Assembly (NCBI GenBank): GCA_001507935.1
Contig: LGET01000115.1
Location: forward strand, 1-5,377
Direction of reading: 5' to 3'
DNA length: 5,377 nucleotides
Origin: Thermococcales archaeon 44_46
GTDB taxonomy: Archaea > Methanobacteriota_B > Thermococci > Thermococcales > Thermococcaceae
The number at the start of each line of letters is the position of its first letter. Position 1 is the first letter of the stretch. Positions 1 through 5,330 of the stretch are shown here, one piece after another. Position numbers and translations under genes: made by a program. The notes below the pieces were generated by a model, which saw only the letters and a list, made by a program, of their open reading frames with translations, searched no databases and had not been told where the DNA came from.

Positions 1-66
1 AAGACCCGCTTTAACTTGGGTCTAAATGAGACCCCTCAAACCTTTCCGCCGTTGGCGAGGGGTTAA
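1..66 (+). CDS. tnpB: Possible C-terminal tail of TnpB (RNA-guided nuclease of IS200/IS605), 5' end outside window
   Basis: Frame 1 is open from the first base to a TAA at 64-66 and would encode a 21-residue tail ending in PPLARG. In IS605-type elements tnpB commonly stops a few tens of bases before the right-end hairpin, and this stop lies about 40 bases before the end at 106, which fits. TnpB tails are poorly conserved, and none of the catalytic RuvC residues or the zinc finger would fall in this part, so the protein cannot be proved from what is visible. Reading the sequence just left of the window would settle it. The alternative is that 1-66 is non-coding and belongs to a short non-autonomous element. 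Confidence 0.35.
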
Positions 67-106
67 CTCGTTGGAACCCTCGCCCTTCACGGCGGGAGGA
101 GGTCAG
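29..106 (+). ncRNA. Candidate 3' scaffold of the TnpB guide RNA (omega RNA/reRNA)
   Basis: Positions 31-37 (ACCCCTC) and 57-63 (GAGGGGT) form a perfect 7-bp stem, enclosing CGCC 47-50 / GGCG 54-57, which shares G57 with the outer stem. A second hairpin (81-84 with 91-94) sits at the element end. Known of the family: TnpB guide RNAs overlap the 3' end of tnpB, contain the right-end stem-loops, and take the bases just outside the right end as guide. Here that guide would begin at 107, in ribA. That this RNA is made is inference; no promoter or expression evidence is visible, and the stems were found by eye. Confidence 0.33.
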
Positions 107-514
107 TGTGGAAGCCAATTAGCAAATGCTCTAAAAATGATAGCTCAGGAAGGAGGAATTTTGCTCTATCTAAGGCAAGAAGGGAGAGGCATTGGTCTAA
201 AGAATAAAATCAAAGCCTACGAACTCCAGGATAGGGGATTTGACACGGTTGAAGCGAATAAAATGCTTGGCTTTAATGAAGATGAGAGGGATTTCAGTGT
301 TGCCTGCCAACTGCTCAAAGCTTTAGGAGTCTCAAAAGTTAAGCTTTTGACAAACAATCCAAAGAAGATTAAAGCTTTGGAAGAGTTTGGAATAGAGGTT
401 GTTGAAGTTATTCCGATTTTTGGAGAAGTTAACGAGATTAACAGATCTTATTTAGAGGTTAAGATGCTCAAGCTTGGACATAATTTAAAATCGCTTTTGG
501 AGGGAAAAGAATGA
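107..514 (+). pseudogene. ribA: GTP cyclohydrolase II (RibA or RibA domain of RibBA), C-terminal part, interrupted by the IS end
   Basis: GTP cyclohydrolase II opens the imidazole ring of GTP, releasing formate and pyrophosphate, in the first step of riboflavin synthesis. The 135 residues from 107 match the C-terminal two thirds of the family: [12 protein letters not shown] (GTP-binding), [16 protein letters not shown] (with the conserved Tyr), FNEDERDF (with the catalytic Asp and Arg) and LLTNNPKKI. The first residue, Cys in CGSQ, corresponds to the third zinc ligand (Cys67 of E. coli RibA). The preceding HSECLTGD...RCD segment with the other two zinc cysteines is missing and is replaced by IS sequence. 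The frame happens to stay open through the element end back to an ATG at 26 (an in-frame TAA lies at 23-25), so 27 foreign residues could be fused to the fragment, but the product should lack a zinc site and be inactive. The next in-frame ATG is at 137. Related genomes often carry RibBA fusions, so the missing 5' part could be longer than RibA alone. The stop overlaps the ribH start (ATGA, 511-514). Confidence 0.85.
499..503 (+). promoter_or_regulatory. Shine-Dalgarno sequence of ribH
   Basis: GGAGG lies inside the end of ribA, 7 bases before the ATG at 511. It supports that start and independent ribosome entry at ribH even if ribA translation fails. Confidence 0.75.
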
Positions 515-969
515 TTTATGAAGGTGAATATAAGGGCGAAGGCTTGAAAATAGGTATAGTTGTAAGCAGATTTAATGATTTGCTGACTAAGGAGCTTTTA
601 GATGGAGCATTGGACTGTCTTAAGAGACATGGTGTCAAAGATTTAGACATCTTTAAGGTTCCTGGAGCATTTGAAATCCCATTTATCACAAAAGAACTAG
701 CAAAAAAAGAGAAATACGATGCGATTTTAGCGTTAGGAGCTGTCGTTAAAGGAGAAACGTATCACTTCGATTTGGTTGCCAATGAAGTTGCAAAAGGAGT
801 AGCCCATATAAACTTAACCTACGAAACTCCTGTAATATTTGGTGTTATAACCGTTGATGATGGGTTGCAAGGATTAGATAGAGCTGGAATAAAGTCAAAT
901 AAAGGTTTTGAATATGCTTTAGCTACTTTAGAGATGGCAAATTTAAGAAAGAAAATAAAAAACATTTAG
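511..969 (+). CDS. ribH: 6,7-dimethyl-8-ribityllumazine synthase
   Basis: RibH condenses 5-amino-6-ribitylamino-uracil with 3,4-dihydroxy-2-butanone 4-phosphate to give lumazine, the penultimate step of riboflavin synthesis; the family forms cytoplasmic pentamers or 60-subunit shells. At 152 residues it has the usual full length. Visible family motifs are GIVVSRFND (15-23), VPGAFEIPF (50-58), [13 protein letters not shown] (75-87) with the likely catalytic His85, [20 protein letters not shown] (107-126) with the phosphate-binding region, and the C-terminal [16 protein letters not shown] (130-145). The start is fixed by the GGAGG at 499-503 and the ATGA overlap with ribA. It is the last gene of the + strand operon and its stop overlaps the convergent purO stop. 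Because ribA upstream is interrupted, ribH expression may depend on read-through from the insertion element or on a promoter within it; I see no obvious promoter between 107 and 510. Confidence 0.96.
952..962 (-). terminator. Oligo-T terminator of the thiC-purC-purP-purO operon
   Basis: Just past the purO stop, the - strand reads T6 (962-957), A, then T4 (955-952), inside the last codons of ribH on the opposite strand. Oligo-T tracts in the transcript end transcription in Thermococcales without needing a hairpin. This is predicted from base composition only. Confidence 0.5.
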
Positions 970-1562
970 TTTTTGTTTTTTATTCCTATCCTAAACCCAT
1001 CTCCAGAGTCAAGGACTCCAACCGCCAAAACTGGATGGGCGAACTTTAATTTTAAAACCCTCTCAGCCAGCTCCTCCTCATCGCCAAAGTCTAAGCTCAG
1101 GGTTTCAATGCCCTCAACATTGTATGTAGCGGTGAAAAATGCCCTTCCTTCCTCAAGCTCAACTTTTTTCACCCAAAGCTCATCCCTTCCAGCGAAGCCC
1201 AAAAAAGCCTTATCTTTATACTTTTGTATCACTCCCCCAATCCTTGGCGTATTCAAGGTATCTCTCTCATAATCCATAGCATCCAAAATGTGAATTAGGG
1301 CCTTTTTTGGCTTTTCCCACTCCAAAGCTTGAGCAATGAACGTTGTGTGAGAGCCATTGCTAACCACTGCATAGTCCTTGAAAATTTTCACGGCTGTGTA
1401 GCTCACATATGGATTGTTTGTCTCCGTTATATTTATCACCTCAACTTCGTCTCCCCTAAGTTTTGCTGTTCTATTGGGAAAAGAGCGAGAACTAACACGA
1501 TAGAAAGCGAAAGGTTTACCCTCTTTTAATCCAACGCCAACCATTCTCCCAACGTATCTCAT
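966..1562 (-). CDS. purO: IMP cyclohydrolase, archaeal PurO type
   Basis: PurO closes the ring of FAICAR (5-formamidoimidazole-4-carboxamide ribotide) to IMP, the last step of purine synthesis. It is an archaeal enzyme with an NTN-hydrolase-like fold, unrelated to the bacterial PurH. The 198 residues match the family's usual length. Motifs seen are YVGRMVGVG (3-11), VSSRSFPNR (23-31), NPYVSYTAV (50-58), VSNGSHTT (67-74), DYERDTLNTPRIGG (97-110) and LGFAGRDEL (121-129). The start at 1562 has GAGGTGAT at 1573-1566 with a three-base spacer and overlaps the purP stop as ATGA, so translation is probably coupled. It is the last gene of the - strand operon and its stop overlaps ribH by four bases. 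Confidence 0.95.
   Translation of the reverse strand: MRYVGRMVGVGLKEGKPFAFYRVSSRSFPNRTAKLRGDEVEVINITETNNPYVSYTAVKIFKDYAVVSNGSHTTFIAQALEWEKPKKALIHILDAMDYERDTLNTPRIGGVIQKYKDKAFLGFAGRDELWVKKVELEEGRAFFTATYNVEGIETLSLDFGDEEELAERVLKLKFAHPVLAVGVLDSGDGFRIGIKNKN
970..981 (+). terminator. Oligo-T terminator of the rib operon
   Basis: T5 (970-974), G, T6 (976-981) begin directly after the ribH stop and lie within the 3' end of purO. With the T-tracts on the other strand at 952-962 this makes a compact two-way terminator for the converging operons. No strong stem-loop is present. Confidence 0.55.
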
Positions 1563-2491
1563 GTTATCACCTCATCCAAGCGGTTCTCATCTAACGCTAA
1601 GCGAATCTCTTTGGCAACCCTTTGACCCATCATAATCTCCTCGCCCCAATAAAGTGAGGAATACCAGTGCTTGGCATTACTTCCACCGTCTATGCGTGAT
1701 GCAAAACCTATGCATCTAAACTCACCATCATAAGCAAAATGCAAGGAAAAAGGTCCTATAACCCCGGGAGGCTCAAGCTTTTCCATTGCTTCAACGAAAG
1801 CCAAGCCATAGTCATAGAGCTCTGGCAGGAGGGATTCTCTCAAAGCTATGGATTTGTTCCCAACTATTGTGTAAGGCAAATCTTTGAAGGGCATTCTCTT
1901 GTTTGCATCCGCTATAACCAATCGTTCATCAACTCCGAAAAGCTCAAGCCTCTCTAAAATAGGCGAATAGAAGAAGTGAACGTAAATGAAGACACCATCT
2001 ACAAAGTGCTCAATTCTATAGTTCTCCTTAACATCTTTTAGCTTTCCCTCTAATTCGTGCCCATAAGCTATGAAGTGTCCACTCCCACCTTTAGGACCTT
2101 CAATTCTGACGAAGTAAAGCTCATCTCCTCTAACCTCATCCAAATCAAAGCTTTCAACTTGAGGAATATCAGCCTTTTGCAAAATCTTGTCAACAAGCTC
2201 AAACTTTGTTTCCCACTTCAAAAACCTCTTGTTTCCAAAGAACTTAGCTTTGCTACTCTCTATCATATCAATACCGAGATAAGCCACAAAAGAGCCGTGA
2301 GGGACTATTATTCCGTCATCACTCAGTATCTCTTCCATATTAGCGGTGACTCTAAGGTCATCAACTATTGGAAGTGAAGAGTAGAAGCTCTTCCTCTTTG
2401 GAGAAACATAGAGACGGGTTTTGAAACCTTCTTTCTTTGCTCCCATCATTATCTGCAAAGCCGAATGGGAGGCTATGGTTGAGATGATCAT
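1559..2491 (-). CDS. purP: PurP-family ATP-grasp protein (FAICAR synthetase family), short and divergent
   Basis: PurP makes FAICAR from AICAR, formate and ATP in archaea that lack PurH. The 310 residues follow the PurP pattern throughout: TIASHSALQIMMGAKKEGF (5-23), VPHGSFVAYLGID (63-75), FFGNKRFLKWE (84-94), GPKGGSGHFIA (132-142), HFFYSP (172-177), GNKSIALRESLLPE (211-224), GPFSLHF (246-252), SRIDGGSNA (265-273) and MGQRVAKEI (288-296). An in-frame TGA (2494-2492) sits directly before the ATG, so no longer N-terminus exists in this frame; GGGGGTGA at 2503-2496 is the ribosome site and ATGA overlaps purC. Compared from memory with the Methanocaldococcus and Pyrococcus enzymes (about 361 and 334 residues), it is shorter. 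It has Gly262 where they have the Glu of FE(M/I)SAR, His251 where they have Gln or Glu, and changes in the glycine-rich loop. It may be a second PurP subtype rather than the classical enzyme. Position between purC and purO supports a purine role. Confidence 0.85.
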   Translation of the reverse strand: MIISTIASHSALQIMMGAKKEGFKTRLYVSPKRKSFYSSLPIVDDLRVTANMEEILSDDGIIVPHGSFVAYLGIDMIESSKAKFFGNKRFLKWETKFELVDKILQKADIPQVESFDLDEVRGDELYFVRIEGPKGGSGHFIAYGHELEGKLKDVKENYRIEHFVDGVFIYVHFFYSPILERLELFGVDERLVIADANKRMPFKDLPYTIVGNKSIALRESLLPELYDYGLAFVEAMEKLEPPGVIGPFSLHFAYDGEFRCIGFASRIDGGSNAKHWYSSLYWGEEIMMGQRVAKEIRLALDENRLDEVIT

Positions 2492-3147
2492 TCAATCACC
2501 CCCAAAAGCTCTTCTTGCTTTAGAAGCTTTCCCCCTTTCATCACCCTAATAGTATCACCGCTTATCTCATCTATAACCAAGAGTTCGTCGTTTTTTCGCC
2601 CAAACTCAAGCTTGAAGTCGATTATCTCAAATCCTTTGCTTTTGAAAAATTCTTTCAAAATTTGAGCAACTTTTCTTGTTGTTTTTTTCATCTCCTCAAT
2701 CTCTTCCTTGGTTGCAATGCCGAGCGTTTCTGTAACCTCTTCACAAATGAGAGGATCACCTAAGGCATCGCTTTTTAGTGTAAATTCAACAATGTCTAAA
2801 TCGCTGAGGGGCTTAACTAATTCACCGTAGCGCCTTAAGAAACTTCCATAAGCTTTGTAGCGGTAGATTACCTCAAGGGGTATCCTTTCGGCTTTTAAAA
2901 ACTTCGCCCTTCTTTCATCAAGCCTCTCGACAAAGTGAGTTTTTACACCCCTCTTTTCCAACAATTTGAAGAAAAACTCTGTTTGTTTCAAAACTACACT
3001 TCCTTTGCCTTTTCTTCCTCCAATTACCTCATTTCCACCGGTATCTTCCTTTTCGCCAAAGCCCAAGATGCTGTCTTTAAAGTAAAAAATCAAAAACTCG
3101 CCATCTTCATAAACGTCTTTTGTCTTTCCCCTATAGATAAGCTTCAT
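2488..3147 (-). CDS. purC: Phosphoribosylaminoimidazole-succinocarboxamide (SAICAR) synthase
   Basis: PurC joins aspartate to CAIR using ATP, giving SAICAR on the way to IMP. With the chosen start it has 219 residues. It shows GKTKDVYEDG (7-16), which is the ATP-site N-terminal motif, GKGS (47-50), SAICAR signature 1 as IPLEVIYRYKAYGS (89-102), signature 2 as IIDFKLEFG (175-183), and DEISGDTIR (193-201). The more usual form of the last motif is DEISPDT. The protein ends soon after it, so the C-terminus is shorter than in bacterial enzymes. An earlier in-frame ATG at 3177 would add MTCLGKRVKL, but the ATG at 3147 is preferred: it is preceded by GGGTGA (3158-3153) at five bases, and family members start at this point. 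It begins inside the last six codons of thiC, so the two are translated as a coupled pair. Its product needs PurB, not encoded here, before PurP can act. Confidence 0.93.
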   Translation of the reverse strand: MKLIYRGKTKDVYEDGEFLIFYFKDSILGFGEKEDTGGNEVIGGRKGKGSVVLKQTEFFFKLLEKRGVKTHFVERLDERRAKFLKAERIPLEVIYRYKAYGSFLRRYGELVKPLSDLDIVEFTLKSDALGDPLICEEVTETLGIATKEEIEEMKKTTRKVAQILKEFFKSKGFEIIDFKLEFGRKNDELLVIDEISGDTIRVMKGGKLLKQEELLGVIE

Positions 3148-4435
3148 CAGCTTCACCCTTTTTCCTAAGCATGTCATTTATGAGGCGTATCGCACACAGC
3201 TCCCCGCACATTGAGCAGGCTTCTGTAGAAGTCGGTCTATTTTTTCTTATCTCATCAAAGCGTTCTTTGTCCACTGCAAACTTAAATTGCTTCTCCCAGT
3301 CCAGAGAACCTCTCGCCAGGCTCATGGTGTAGTCCCTCCTCCACTCCTCCTCGAAGCGTGTTAGGTTCACAGCATGGGCAGCAAGCTTTGTTGCTATTAC
3401 CCCAAGACGCACGTGTTCTCTATCAGGCAAACCTAAGTGCTCCGCCGGTGTGACATAACAGAGAAAGTCCGCCCCATTCAAAGCGGCTATTGCCCCTCCA
3501 ATGGCTCCAGCTATATGGTCGTAGCCCGGAAAAATGTCCGTTACCAAGGGACCAAGGACGTAGAATGGAGCGTTATCAGTTGCGACCTTCGCTATTTTTA
3601 TCTGCATTGGAATTTGGTCTATTGGCACGTGTCCGGGCCCCTCAACCATAGTTTGAACTCCAAACTCTCTTGCCCTTCTCACCAAGCGCCCCAAGGTAAA
3701 GAGCTCACTCATTTGAAGCTCATCCCCAGCGTCCGGGAGTCCCCCTGGCCTCAGGCCATCGCCCAGGCTCAAGACCACGTCGTATTCCTTAGCAAGTTCC
3801 AAGAGATAATCATAGTCCTTATAGAAAGGGTTCTCACTCTCCCAGTGAATCATCCAAGCCGCTAAGAAAGTTCCTCCTCTCGAAACCATGCCAACAGTTC
3901 TCTTAACCCTTTTCATCTTTTCCACAACTTCTTTAGTAACTCCAACATGTATCGTCGCGTAATCAACACCATCCTTGAAGTGCTTCTCCACGGCATTCCA
4001 CATGTCATCTTCGCTCATTTCAATGATAGCCTTACCCTTTGCCAGCATCTCCTCAGCGGCTTGATAAATTGGGACTGTTCCAACTGGAACATCTACAGCT
4101 CTCATAATTTCCCTTCTAATTTTATCCAAATCACCACCCGTTGAGAGGTCCATTATGGTGTCGGCCCCGTACCTCACAGCTATTCTAGCCTTCTCTATCT
4201 CTTCTTCAACATTCACTATGTCCCTTGAGGTTCCAATGTTTGCATTGACTTTAATCCTCACACCTTTGCCCACGGCAACAGGTTTAACCCAATCGTGATT
4301 GACGTTTCTAAAGATAACAGTGTAACCCTTAGCTACGTTTCTCCTAAGCTTTTCAACACTTATGTTCTCCTGCTTGGCTATAAAGTTCATTTCCTCCGTT
4401 ATTATCCCACGTTTGGCTTCTTCCATCTGGGTCAT
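3131..4435 (-). CDS. thiC: Phosphomethylpyrimidine synthase (HMP-P synthase)
   Basis: ThiC is a non-classical radical-SAM enzyme that rearranges aminoimidazole ribotide (AIR), an intermediate of purine synthesis, to hydroxymethylpyrimidine phosphate for thiamine. With the ATG at 4435 it has 434 residues, the length of the short archaeal form. It shows IITEEMNFIAKQENI near the N-terminus, GYTVIFRN, KVNANIGTS, GADTIMDLSTGGDL, PVGTVPIYQA, TIHVGVT, VSRGGTFLAAWM, SLGDGLRPG, VEGPGHVP, YVLGPLVTDIFPGYDHI, GAIGGA, CYVTPAEHLGLP and, at the C-terminus, the iron-sulphur cysteines CSMCGELC (407, 410, 414). Upstream TTG (4456) and ATG (4447) codons in frame are less likely, because GGTGG at 4445-4441 lies five bases before 4435 and overlaps the 4447 start. 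It is the first gene of the operon, divergent from thi4, and overlaps purC by 17 bases. No TPP riboswitch fits upstream. Confidence 0.96.
   Translation of the reverse strand: MTQMEEAKRGIITEEMNFIAKQENISVEKLRRNVAKGYTVIFRNVNHDWVKPVAVGKGVRIKVNANIGTSRDIVNVEEEIEKARIAVRYGADTIMDLSTGGDLDKIRREIMRAVDVPVGTVPIYQAAEEMLAKGKAIIEMSEDDMWNAVEKHFKDGVDYATIHVGVTKEVVEKMKRVKRTVGMVSRGGTFLAAWMIHWESENPFYKDYDYLLELAKEYDVVLSLGDGLRPGGLPDAGDELQMSELFTLGRLVRRAREFGVQTMVEGPGHVPIDQIPMQIKIAKVATDNAPFYVLGPLVTDIFPGYDHIAGAIGGAIAALNGADFLCYVTPAEHLGLPDREHVRLGVIATKLAAHAVNLTRFEEEWRRDYTMSLARGSLDWEKQFKFAVDKERFDEIRKNRPTSTEACSMCGELCAIRLINDMLRKKGEADEAYL
3153..3158 (-). promoter_or_regulatory. Shine-Dalgarno sequence deciding the purC start
   Basis: GGGTGA on the - strand, inside the thiC coding end, lies five bases before the ATG at 3147. 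This favours the 219-residue PurC over the 229-residue reading that begins at 3177. Confidence 0.65.
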
Positions 4436-4516
4436 CCTAACCACCATATATAACAAGGTTTTTAAGTTTCAATACTAAGTTTTAGTCGAGCTTTATGAAT
4501 TTTTCGGGTGGTGGAA
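4436..4516. promoter_or_regulatory. Divergent thiC/thi4 promoter region with central palindrome
   Basis: Only 81 bases separate the two start codons. ACTAA (4474-4478), GTT, TTAGT (4482-4486) forms a five-base inverted repeat centred at 4480, within about four bases of the midpoint. TATA-like tracts flank it. On the + strand, GGTTTTTAAG (4457-4466) could serve thi4 with a start near 4490. On the - strand, GAAAAATTCATAAAG (4505-4491) could serve thiC with a start near 4470; ACTTAAAAAC (4468-4459) is an alternative that would leave almost no leader. In the first arrangement the palindrome lies between TATA and transcript start for both genes, which suits a shared repressor site, for example for the ThiN-domain regulator ThiR known from archaea. 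The protein and the binding are inference. Confidence 0.45.
4506..4514 (+). promoter_or_regulatory. Shine-Dalgarno sequence deciding the thi4 start
   Basis: GGGTGGTGG precedes the ATG at 4517. In-frame GTG codons at 4508 and 4511 lie within this site and would leave no ribosome site of their own, so the ATG at 4517 is preferred. Confidence 0.65.
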
Positions 4517-5275
4517 ATGCTAAGGGATGTAACCATAAGCAGGGCGATAATTGAAACCTACTTCAAAGAGCTCTTAGAGCACTTAAACCTCGACGTTGCT
4601 ATAGTTGGAGCCGGTCCATCGGGAATGGTAGCCGCTTATTATCTTGCCAAAGGCGGCGCAAAGGTGGCAATCTTTGAGAAAAAGCTGAGCATAGGGGGAG
4701 GAATATGGGGAGGAGGAATGGGCTTCAATAAGATAGTTGTGGAAGAAGAGGCTAAGGAAATCCTCGAGGAATTTGGAGTAAGGCATGAAGAATTTGAGGA
4801 AGGCTATTATGTTGCCGATGCCATCGAAGTGGCAACAACAATAGCGAGCAAGAATATAAAAGCTGGGGCAAAGATATTCAACATGGTTGAGGTCGAGGAT
4901 TTAGTTGTTAAGGAGAACCGCGTAGCTGGAATAGTCATAAACTGGACACCCGTTAAAATGACGGACCTTCACGTTGATCCGCTAACAGTTGAAGCCAAGT
5001 TTGTGATTGATTCTACAGGTCATGGAGCACAGGTAACCCAACTCCTTGAAAAGAGAGGTTTAATAGAGAGGGTTCCCGGCGAAAGTGCGATGTGGGCGGA
5101 GATGGGAGAGAAGCTAACGGTGGAGCACACCAAAGAAATCTACCCCGGCTTATACGTCACAGGAATGGCGGCTAACGCTGTTGCCGGAGCGCCGAGGATG
5201 GGACCAATATTCGGTGGAATGTTCTTAAGCGGAAGAAAAGCTGCTTTCGAGATACTTGAAAAGCTTAAGAAATAA
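4517..5275 (+). CDS. thi4: Thiamine thiazole synthase, archaeal sulphide-dependent Thi4 type
   Basis: Thi4 builds the thiazole (ADP-thiazole) half of thiamine from NAD and glycine plus sulphur. The 252 residues match the archaeal family from end to end: [11 protein letters not shown] at the N-terminus, the dinucleotide-binding VGAGPSG (30-36) followed by FEKK (53-56), [13 protein letters not shown] (60-72), [12 protein letters not shown] (101-112), INWTPVK (141-147), LHVDPLT (151-157), STGHGAQV (166-173) and [20 protein letters not shown] (216-235). His152 in LHVDP occupies the place of the yeast Thi4 cysteine that donates its own sulphur once. Enzymes with His there use free sulphide and turn over repeatedly, which fits a sulphide-rich anaerobic habitat; the functional reading is inferred from characterised relatives. 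It is transcribed away from thiC, which makes the pyrimidine half, so this intergenic region controls both branches of thiamine synthesis. Confidence 0.96.
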
Positions 5276-5289
5276 ATGACATTCATCAG

Positions 5290-5294
5290 TTTTT
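5290..5294 (+). terminator. Probable oligo-T terminator of thi4
   Basis: T5 follows the thi4 stop by 14 bases, with a further pyrimidine-rich stretch and T4 up to about 5312. No stable hairpin is evident. It separates thi4 from the promoter that follows. Confidence 0.4.
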
Positions 5295-5316
5295 GCTCTC
5301 TCCTACTATTTTAATC

Positions 5317-5330
5317 GCAAATTTTATATT
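5317..5330 (+). promoter_or_regulatory. TATA-like promoter of a gene starting beyond the window
   Basis: The tract GCAAATTTTATATT has the purine-rich element plus TTTTATAT form of an archaeal BRE/TATA box. Transcription would start near 5350, about 20 to 30 bases before the end of the window, and a ribosome site follows at 5368, so the spacing fits a short leader. Confidence 0.5.

Follow-up and report, generated by a model that had tools for sequence, protein, structure and literature searches.

Ends of an IS200/IS605-family tnpB element type at two cuts in the riboflavin operon of Thermococcales archaeon 44_46

The window analysed here, a whole contig of 5,377 bp (C205), belongs to the assembly of Thermococcales archaeon 44_46, a fragmented, metagenome-like bin of 1.70 Mb in 272 contigs that is 79% complete. 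On the forward strand it begins with a remnant of ribBA and an intact ribH, followed on the reverse strand by an IMP cyclohydrolase-like gene, a DUF1246/DUF1297 gene, a SAICAR synthetase gene and thiC; the last gene, thi4, lies again on the forward strand. Its riboflavin proteins have their closest named relatives in Thermococcus, Palaeococcus and Pyrococcus. Compared with the near-identical genome G002, positions 107–4249 contain 3 mismatches and the other 71 of the 74 lie within 4250–4485, while neither the ribBA remnant (0 of 134 codons) nor ribH (0 of 152) shows a codon difference. Window 4486–5318, which holds thi4, has no counterpart at the same place in G002, where ~25 bp are found instead; genome G003 carries thi4 at the corresponding place. 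The features at the start of the window are as follows.

1..106, forward strand: right end of an IS200/IS605-family tnpB element (tnpB end, hairpins and cut site), identical in 106 of 106 bases to the right end of a complete element in G002 (L177)
1..66, forward strand: last 21 codons and stop of the tnpB frame; the TnpB match covers 1–63, and the L177 frame ends at the equivalent of window position 63
103..106, forward strand: TCAG, the putative right cut site and the last bases common to the copies, its role suggested by the TCAA of IS608
107..126, forward strand: ribBA sequence, the predicted guide of the tnpB-bound right-end RNA by analogy with ISDra2
26..514, forward strand: 162-aa chimeric open frame of 27 element codons and the ribBA remnant, predicted to be a non-working enzyme
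107..514, forward strand: 3′ remnant of ribBA, residues 255–389 (G002 numbering), GTP cyclohydrolase II without its first half
511..969, forward strand: ribH (lumazine synthase; PF00885), intact

The homology to GTP cyclohydrolase II starts abruptly at the Cys codon of CGSQ at position 107, as the initial annotation had noted, and the PF00925 profile is matched over positions 58–165 of 165 only. In G002, ribBA is intact and encodes a 389-aa fusion of DHBP synthase and GTP cyclohydrolase II, reading AAGTGTGAC^TGTGGAAGC straight through the break (TGTGAC^TGTGG; the caret marks the joint). The joint in the window is at codon 255, the Cys of CGSQ, which we take to be one of three zinc-binding cysteines, as in bacterial RibA, with the other two in the lost part. 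Six of the seven intact loci examined in relatives carry SECLTGDTLAS(L or F)KCD directly before CGSQL, and the seventh carries SKCLTGDTLASLRCD. Given these sequences in intact relatives, the DNA before 107 is foreign to ribBA; that 1–106 might instead be native to intact genes was ruled out by the G002 ribBA and the seven loci. The initial annotation had expected a lost SECLTGD...RCD segment of ribA ending in GAT. Six of the seven loci have Lys-Cys-Asp rather than Arg-Cys-Asp, and all seven have GAC before the break point; GTP cyclohydrolase II is indeed cut, but as part of a fused ribBA gene.

A 142-aa piece of the chimeric frame is also encoded on another contig of 22,154 bp (a protein cluster of three members, one contig), which likewise begins inside the right end, lacks the left side and possibly derives from the same raw data. 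A scan of genome contigs with the RibA remnant yielded at least 80 loci, mostly bacterial and one from Thermococcus (71% identical), which were uninformative on the junction. The sole PF00925 match in the 44_46 genome (79% complete) is the cut one, and this genome gave no match to PF00926 (DHBP synthase). Of the complete DHBP synthase and GTP cyclohydrolase II domains that a working RibBA requires, only PF00925 positions 58–165 were found.

The DNA in front of the break is the right end of an IS200/IS605 tnpB element, as first proposed. Window 1–63 matched TnpB at 81% over 21 residues (E 9e-4, TnpB search), and the GC content of 1–106 is 57.5% vs 36.4% for 107–969. Folded as single-stranded DNA, 1–107 had a z of −4.23, with none of 200 shuffles folding as well. 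The stretch terminates in GGAGGAGGTCAG, the last bases before the ribBA joint being GGTCAG. Since parts of 1–107 have 13 other matches in the 44_46 genome (80–99% identical, several partial), this is element sequence and not a chance resemblance. Twelve of the 13 matched stretches end in GTCAG (AAGTCAG in C48, GGTCAG in the rest) with unrelated DNA beyond; in the 13th, C123b, GGTCAG follows 23 bases further on. TnpB frames or frame ends lie upstream of several of these copies. Rfam gave no match at gathering score in the whole window.

The complete element in G002 (L177:200–1669) is 1,470 bp long, and its last 106 bases are those of window 1–106. It codes for a single 435-aa TnpB (PF01385 OrfB, PF07282 zinc-ribbon-like, NF040570), and no Y1 transposase was found within it. 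The window shows only the last 21 tnpB codons of its own copy; the domains were found in the identical-ended G002 copy. The element is of an already known kind and belongs to a known family. The Y1 transposase TnpA occurs five times in G002 and was not found in the 44_46 genome (79% complete). A tnpA+tnpB element whose ends resemble these (left ~81%, right ~92% identical) is present five times in G002 and is a likely source of TnpA; the left ends C161 and C26 of 44_46 are like those of its copies.

Several further observations concern the same family in these genomes. Other right ends in 44_46 run directly into coding frames, namely those of a 2-hydroxyacid dehydrogenase (L029:151–414), an NCS1/CytX-like permease (L030:87–536), an alpha-amylase-like protein (L026:3443–3802, reverse strand) and an unnamed protein (L025:156–605); at the last three of these loci the insertion is absent from G002. 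Contig C143 of 44_46 (L135) has two more TnpB-like frames of 422 and 351 aa, which are distant from the family (36% and 23%). Five micro-elements of 45–48 bp (L036, on C190 of 44_46 from ~2850; L256, L260, L261 and L262) consist of TTAC or TGAC and then a single hairpin in which the start of a left end passes straight into the right-end finish GGAGG[T/C]CAG. They resemble relics of this family reduced to the smallest size that could still move.

The operon is cut at a second place. The G002 region with ribD, ribE and ribBA (L037 3900–6520) gave one match in the 44_46 genome, contig C100, which follows G002 up to a site in ribD with 1 mismatch in 1,430 bp. There C100 breaks at GACAGCTTTTAC and enters a left end that agrees with that of L177 in 84 of 84 bases, after which the contig stops; ribD of G002 reads through the site as GACAGCTTTTAC^GTGGAGG. 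The cut lies nine codons before the end of the gene, and RibD in C100 lacks the final 9 residues and ends instead in a tail encoded by the element. A protein search with this chimera returned 5,985 proteins; among the best 120, the one identical cluster ends at 92% of the query, short of the element tail, and no entry covers more than 96%. The left end carries a subterminal hairpin (CCTCGCCC-TTCA-GGGCGGGG), as the right end does by its fold score. The initial annotation had proposed looking for the left end next to the 5′ part of ribA; a left end of the same type exists, but the only one found in the 44_46 genome is this one, in ribD and not in ribBA. In G002 the ribD and ribBA cuts are 1,326 bp apart (L037 5330–6655) and enclose the end of ribD, ribE and the first two thirds of ribBA; the two element ends face the same way. 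No match to L037 5330–6520, which covers all but the last 135 bp of this gap, was found in the 44_46 genome. Given the near identity to G002 around both cuts, the event is recent.

To characterize the target, 45 of the listed left ends were read, of which 43 were distinct. The bases before them were TTAC in 35 cases, TGAC in 6 and neither in 2 (C48 and one in G006). The TTGAT-type target suggested at the outset preceded none of them and must be dropped; the ribBA site is TGTGAC. Left ends with the guide AAAG, the four bases before the left hairpin, followed TTAC in 28 of 30 cases, neither motif in 2 and TGAC in none, while those with CAAG or CAAC followed TGAC in 5 of 6 cases and TTAC in 1 (Fisher p 2e-5, which overstates the number of independent events because copies are related by descent). 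Outside this test were AAGG (twice), AATG and AAGA, all with TTAC, TAAA with TGAC, and two ends without a guide read, both at TTAC. An earlier count, with a pattern requiring TNAC, had given 27 of 27 for AAAG with TTAC and 5 of 6 for CAAG/CAAC with TGAC. Across the family, left guide and target covary as IS608 pairing predicts, and the two joints fall at the cut site of the element and immediately behind a TNAC. The ribD site fits the AAAG guide of the element; the ribBA site does not, since AAAG was paired with TGAC in 0 of 30 cases, and no left end was seen there.

Insertion in the family leaves no target duplication, as had been supposed: C161 ends in ATCTTAC followed by a left end, C218 starts with a right end followed by TCTTCC, and the empty site in G002 reads ATCTTAC^TCTTCC. 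Other empty sites in G002 read GCATTTAC^ (C259) and ACGTTTAC^ (C230), and that of C125, read in the more distant G007, is GAGCTCAC^; none was found for the C213 copy. Identity to G002 around these sites is a mosaic, with 99–100% at the C218, C259 and C230 flanks, 95% at C181 and 93% at C125, a pattern such as recent exchange between close lineages would leave. At the C181 and C125 sites the right end is present in G002 too.

We consider it likely, with a probability of about two in three, that one element now stands in place of the end of ribD, the whole of ribE and the first two thirds of ribBA; riboflavin synthesis would then be abolished. What the sequences show is the family to which the element belongs, both junctions (the right one, and the left one in ribD on C100), an uninterrupted operon in G002, and that the gap DNA was not found in the assembly. 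Both ends match L177 in the same orientation and no other ends of the gap were found, so that the end on C100 and the end in the window would belong to one copy. The interior of the element is not assembled, and the pairing of its ends therefore rests on inference.

The same junctions would also arise if two elements of the same type had inserted separately in ribD and ribBA and the stretch between them, ribE plus the 5′ part of ribBA, survived on a short contig left out of the bin. We regard this as the less probable course, yet one that deserves weight. The middle piece would measure ~1.5 kb, and as the shortest of the 39 contigs sized (of 272) has 2,710 bp and none below this was seen, it would be missing anyway. 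For two of the three other insertions tested (C259 and C230), the assembly lacks the left flank as well; for the third, C218, it contains this flank as C161, which terminates in the left end exactly at TTAC. The left ends of C181 and C259, whose right ends are closest to that of the window, were likewise not found in the 44_46 genome. Moreover, the ribBA joint is immediately preceded by TGAC, which resembles a target used by the wider family, TGTGAC being a TNAC site. Against this stand the absence of TGAC from the 30 left ends with an AAAG guide and the need for two insertions 1.3 kb apart in one orientation, a coincidence that we estimate to be improbable. A shortened RibBA was not seen either, none below 384 aa being found among 68 protein clusters, which counts for little as short contigs may be absent from the database. 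A mixed population, in which the interrupted allele was assembled while other cells keep the operon intact or have regained it by precise excision, would suit a fragmented, metagenome-like bin and the precise excision of IS200/IS605 elements described for IS608 and ISDra2 in excerpts of PMC5934647 and PMC8612924. It is improbable, since PF00925 matched nothing in the genome but the cut gene and no contig with an intact joint was found. Least credible of all is an assembly error that joined a repeat end wrongly to ribBA: contigs do break at these repeats, but the joint lies at the natural end of the element, directly after what is TGAC in a relative, and recurs on the 22,154-bp contig, albeit possibly from the same raw data.

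As to how a single element could have come to span the gap, we suggest that it entered at TTTTAC in ribD, a target that would match its AAAG left guide, and that TnpA supplied in trans then joined its right end to TGTGAC^TGTGG in ribBA, throwing out the stretch between them as an adjacent deletion. The TCAG and TGAC joints would seem to suit a transposase better than random repair. We offer this only tentatively: with the right end joined to an imperfectly matching TGAC, a single step would have removed 1,326 bp and with them the core of the operon, and the new joint of TTTTAC and ribBA guide would be a matching target of the element's own TnpB nuclease, locking the deletion. By analogy with known TnpB proteins, TnpB guided by the ribBA sequence would cleave sites that had been re-joined, holding the element in place. 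Recombination between two direct copies is a less likely route. Deletion by short homology was rejected: GTGGAGG after the ribD site and TGTGGAAG after the ribBA site share GTGGA, one base out of step, and a joint made by recombination there would be expected to lack the T at window 107. Titles and abstract openings, from a literature in which subscription journals are mostly absent, yielded no account of adjacent deletion by IS200/IS605 transposases or of these Thermococcales elements.

GTP cyclohydrolase II is cut however the ends pair. With the left end in ribD and not in ribBA, ribE and the ribB domain are probably affected as well, and the lesion is better seen as a probable deletion across the operon than as a simple insertion in ribA. 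Precise excision, which the initial annotation had seen as a way to restore the gene, could then not do so. No second GTP cyclohydrolase II was found in the 79%-complete genome. The cell would now have to import riboflavin; the one ECF-type match in the 44_46 genome is BioY-like by Pfam (PF02632), and hence no riboflavin importer was identified. PF00925 was present in 12 of the 41 genomes searched and in 4 of 13 in the genus, counting the broken one, and a table in PMC2816203 (excerpt) lists riboflavin synthesis for one Pyrococcus species out of three; the group is thus known for repeated loss, or patchy gain, of the pathway. In 44_46 the loss of the riboflavin operon seems to have been caught early, with a near-identical genome still retaining it. 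Had one element indeed deleted 1.3 kb of adjacent DNA, gene loss could also come directly from a transposon family known for clean and precise movement.

The complete G002 element resembles the tnpB-only elements of the IS1341-type group in carrying tnpB and no tnpA, whereas the same genome also holds the five tnpA+tnpB copies with similar ends. IS608 of Helicobacter pylori inserts 3′ of TTAC, with a left guide AAAG, a right cut site TCAA and no target duplication (excerpts of PMC5934647). The present element shares the TTAC target, the AAAG guide 5′ of the left hairpin, a right cut site TCA(A/G) and insertion without duplication; unlike IS608, it is archaeal, its identical-ended G002 copy has tnpB only, and a second group pairs CAAG/CAAC with TGAC. 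Natural copies of these elements include two groups between which left guide and target have changed in concert, in agreement with the IS608 pairing rule. In ISDra2 of Deinococcus radiodurans, the right-end RNA ends in ~16 nt of flanking DNA that serves as guide (excerpts of PMC8612924), and studies of ISDra2 and of plasmids describe TnpB guided by the flank as cutting empty sites (excerpts of PMC8612924 and of the preprint PMC11870625). The element described here is alike in being a tnpB element with a flanking-DNA guide predicted from its right end, whereas the target is TTGAT in ISDra2 and TTAC or TGAC in the Thermococcales family.
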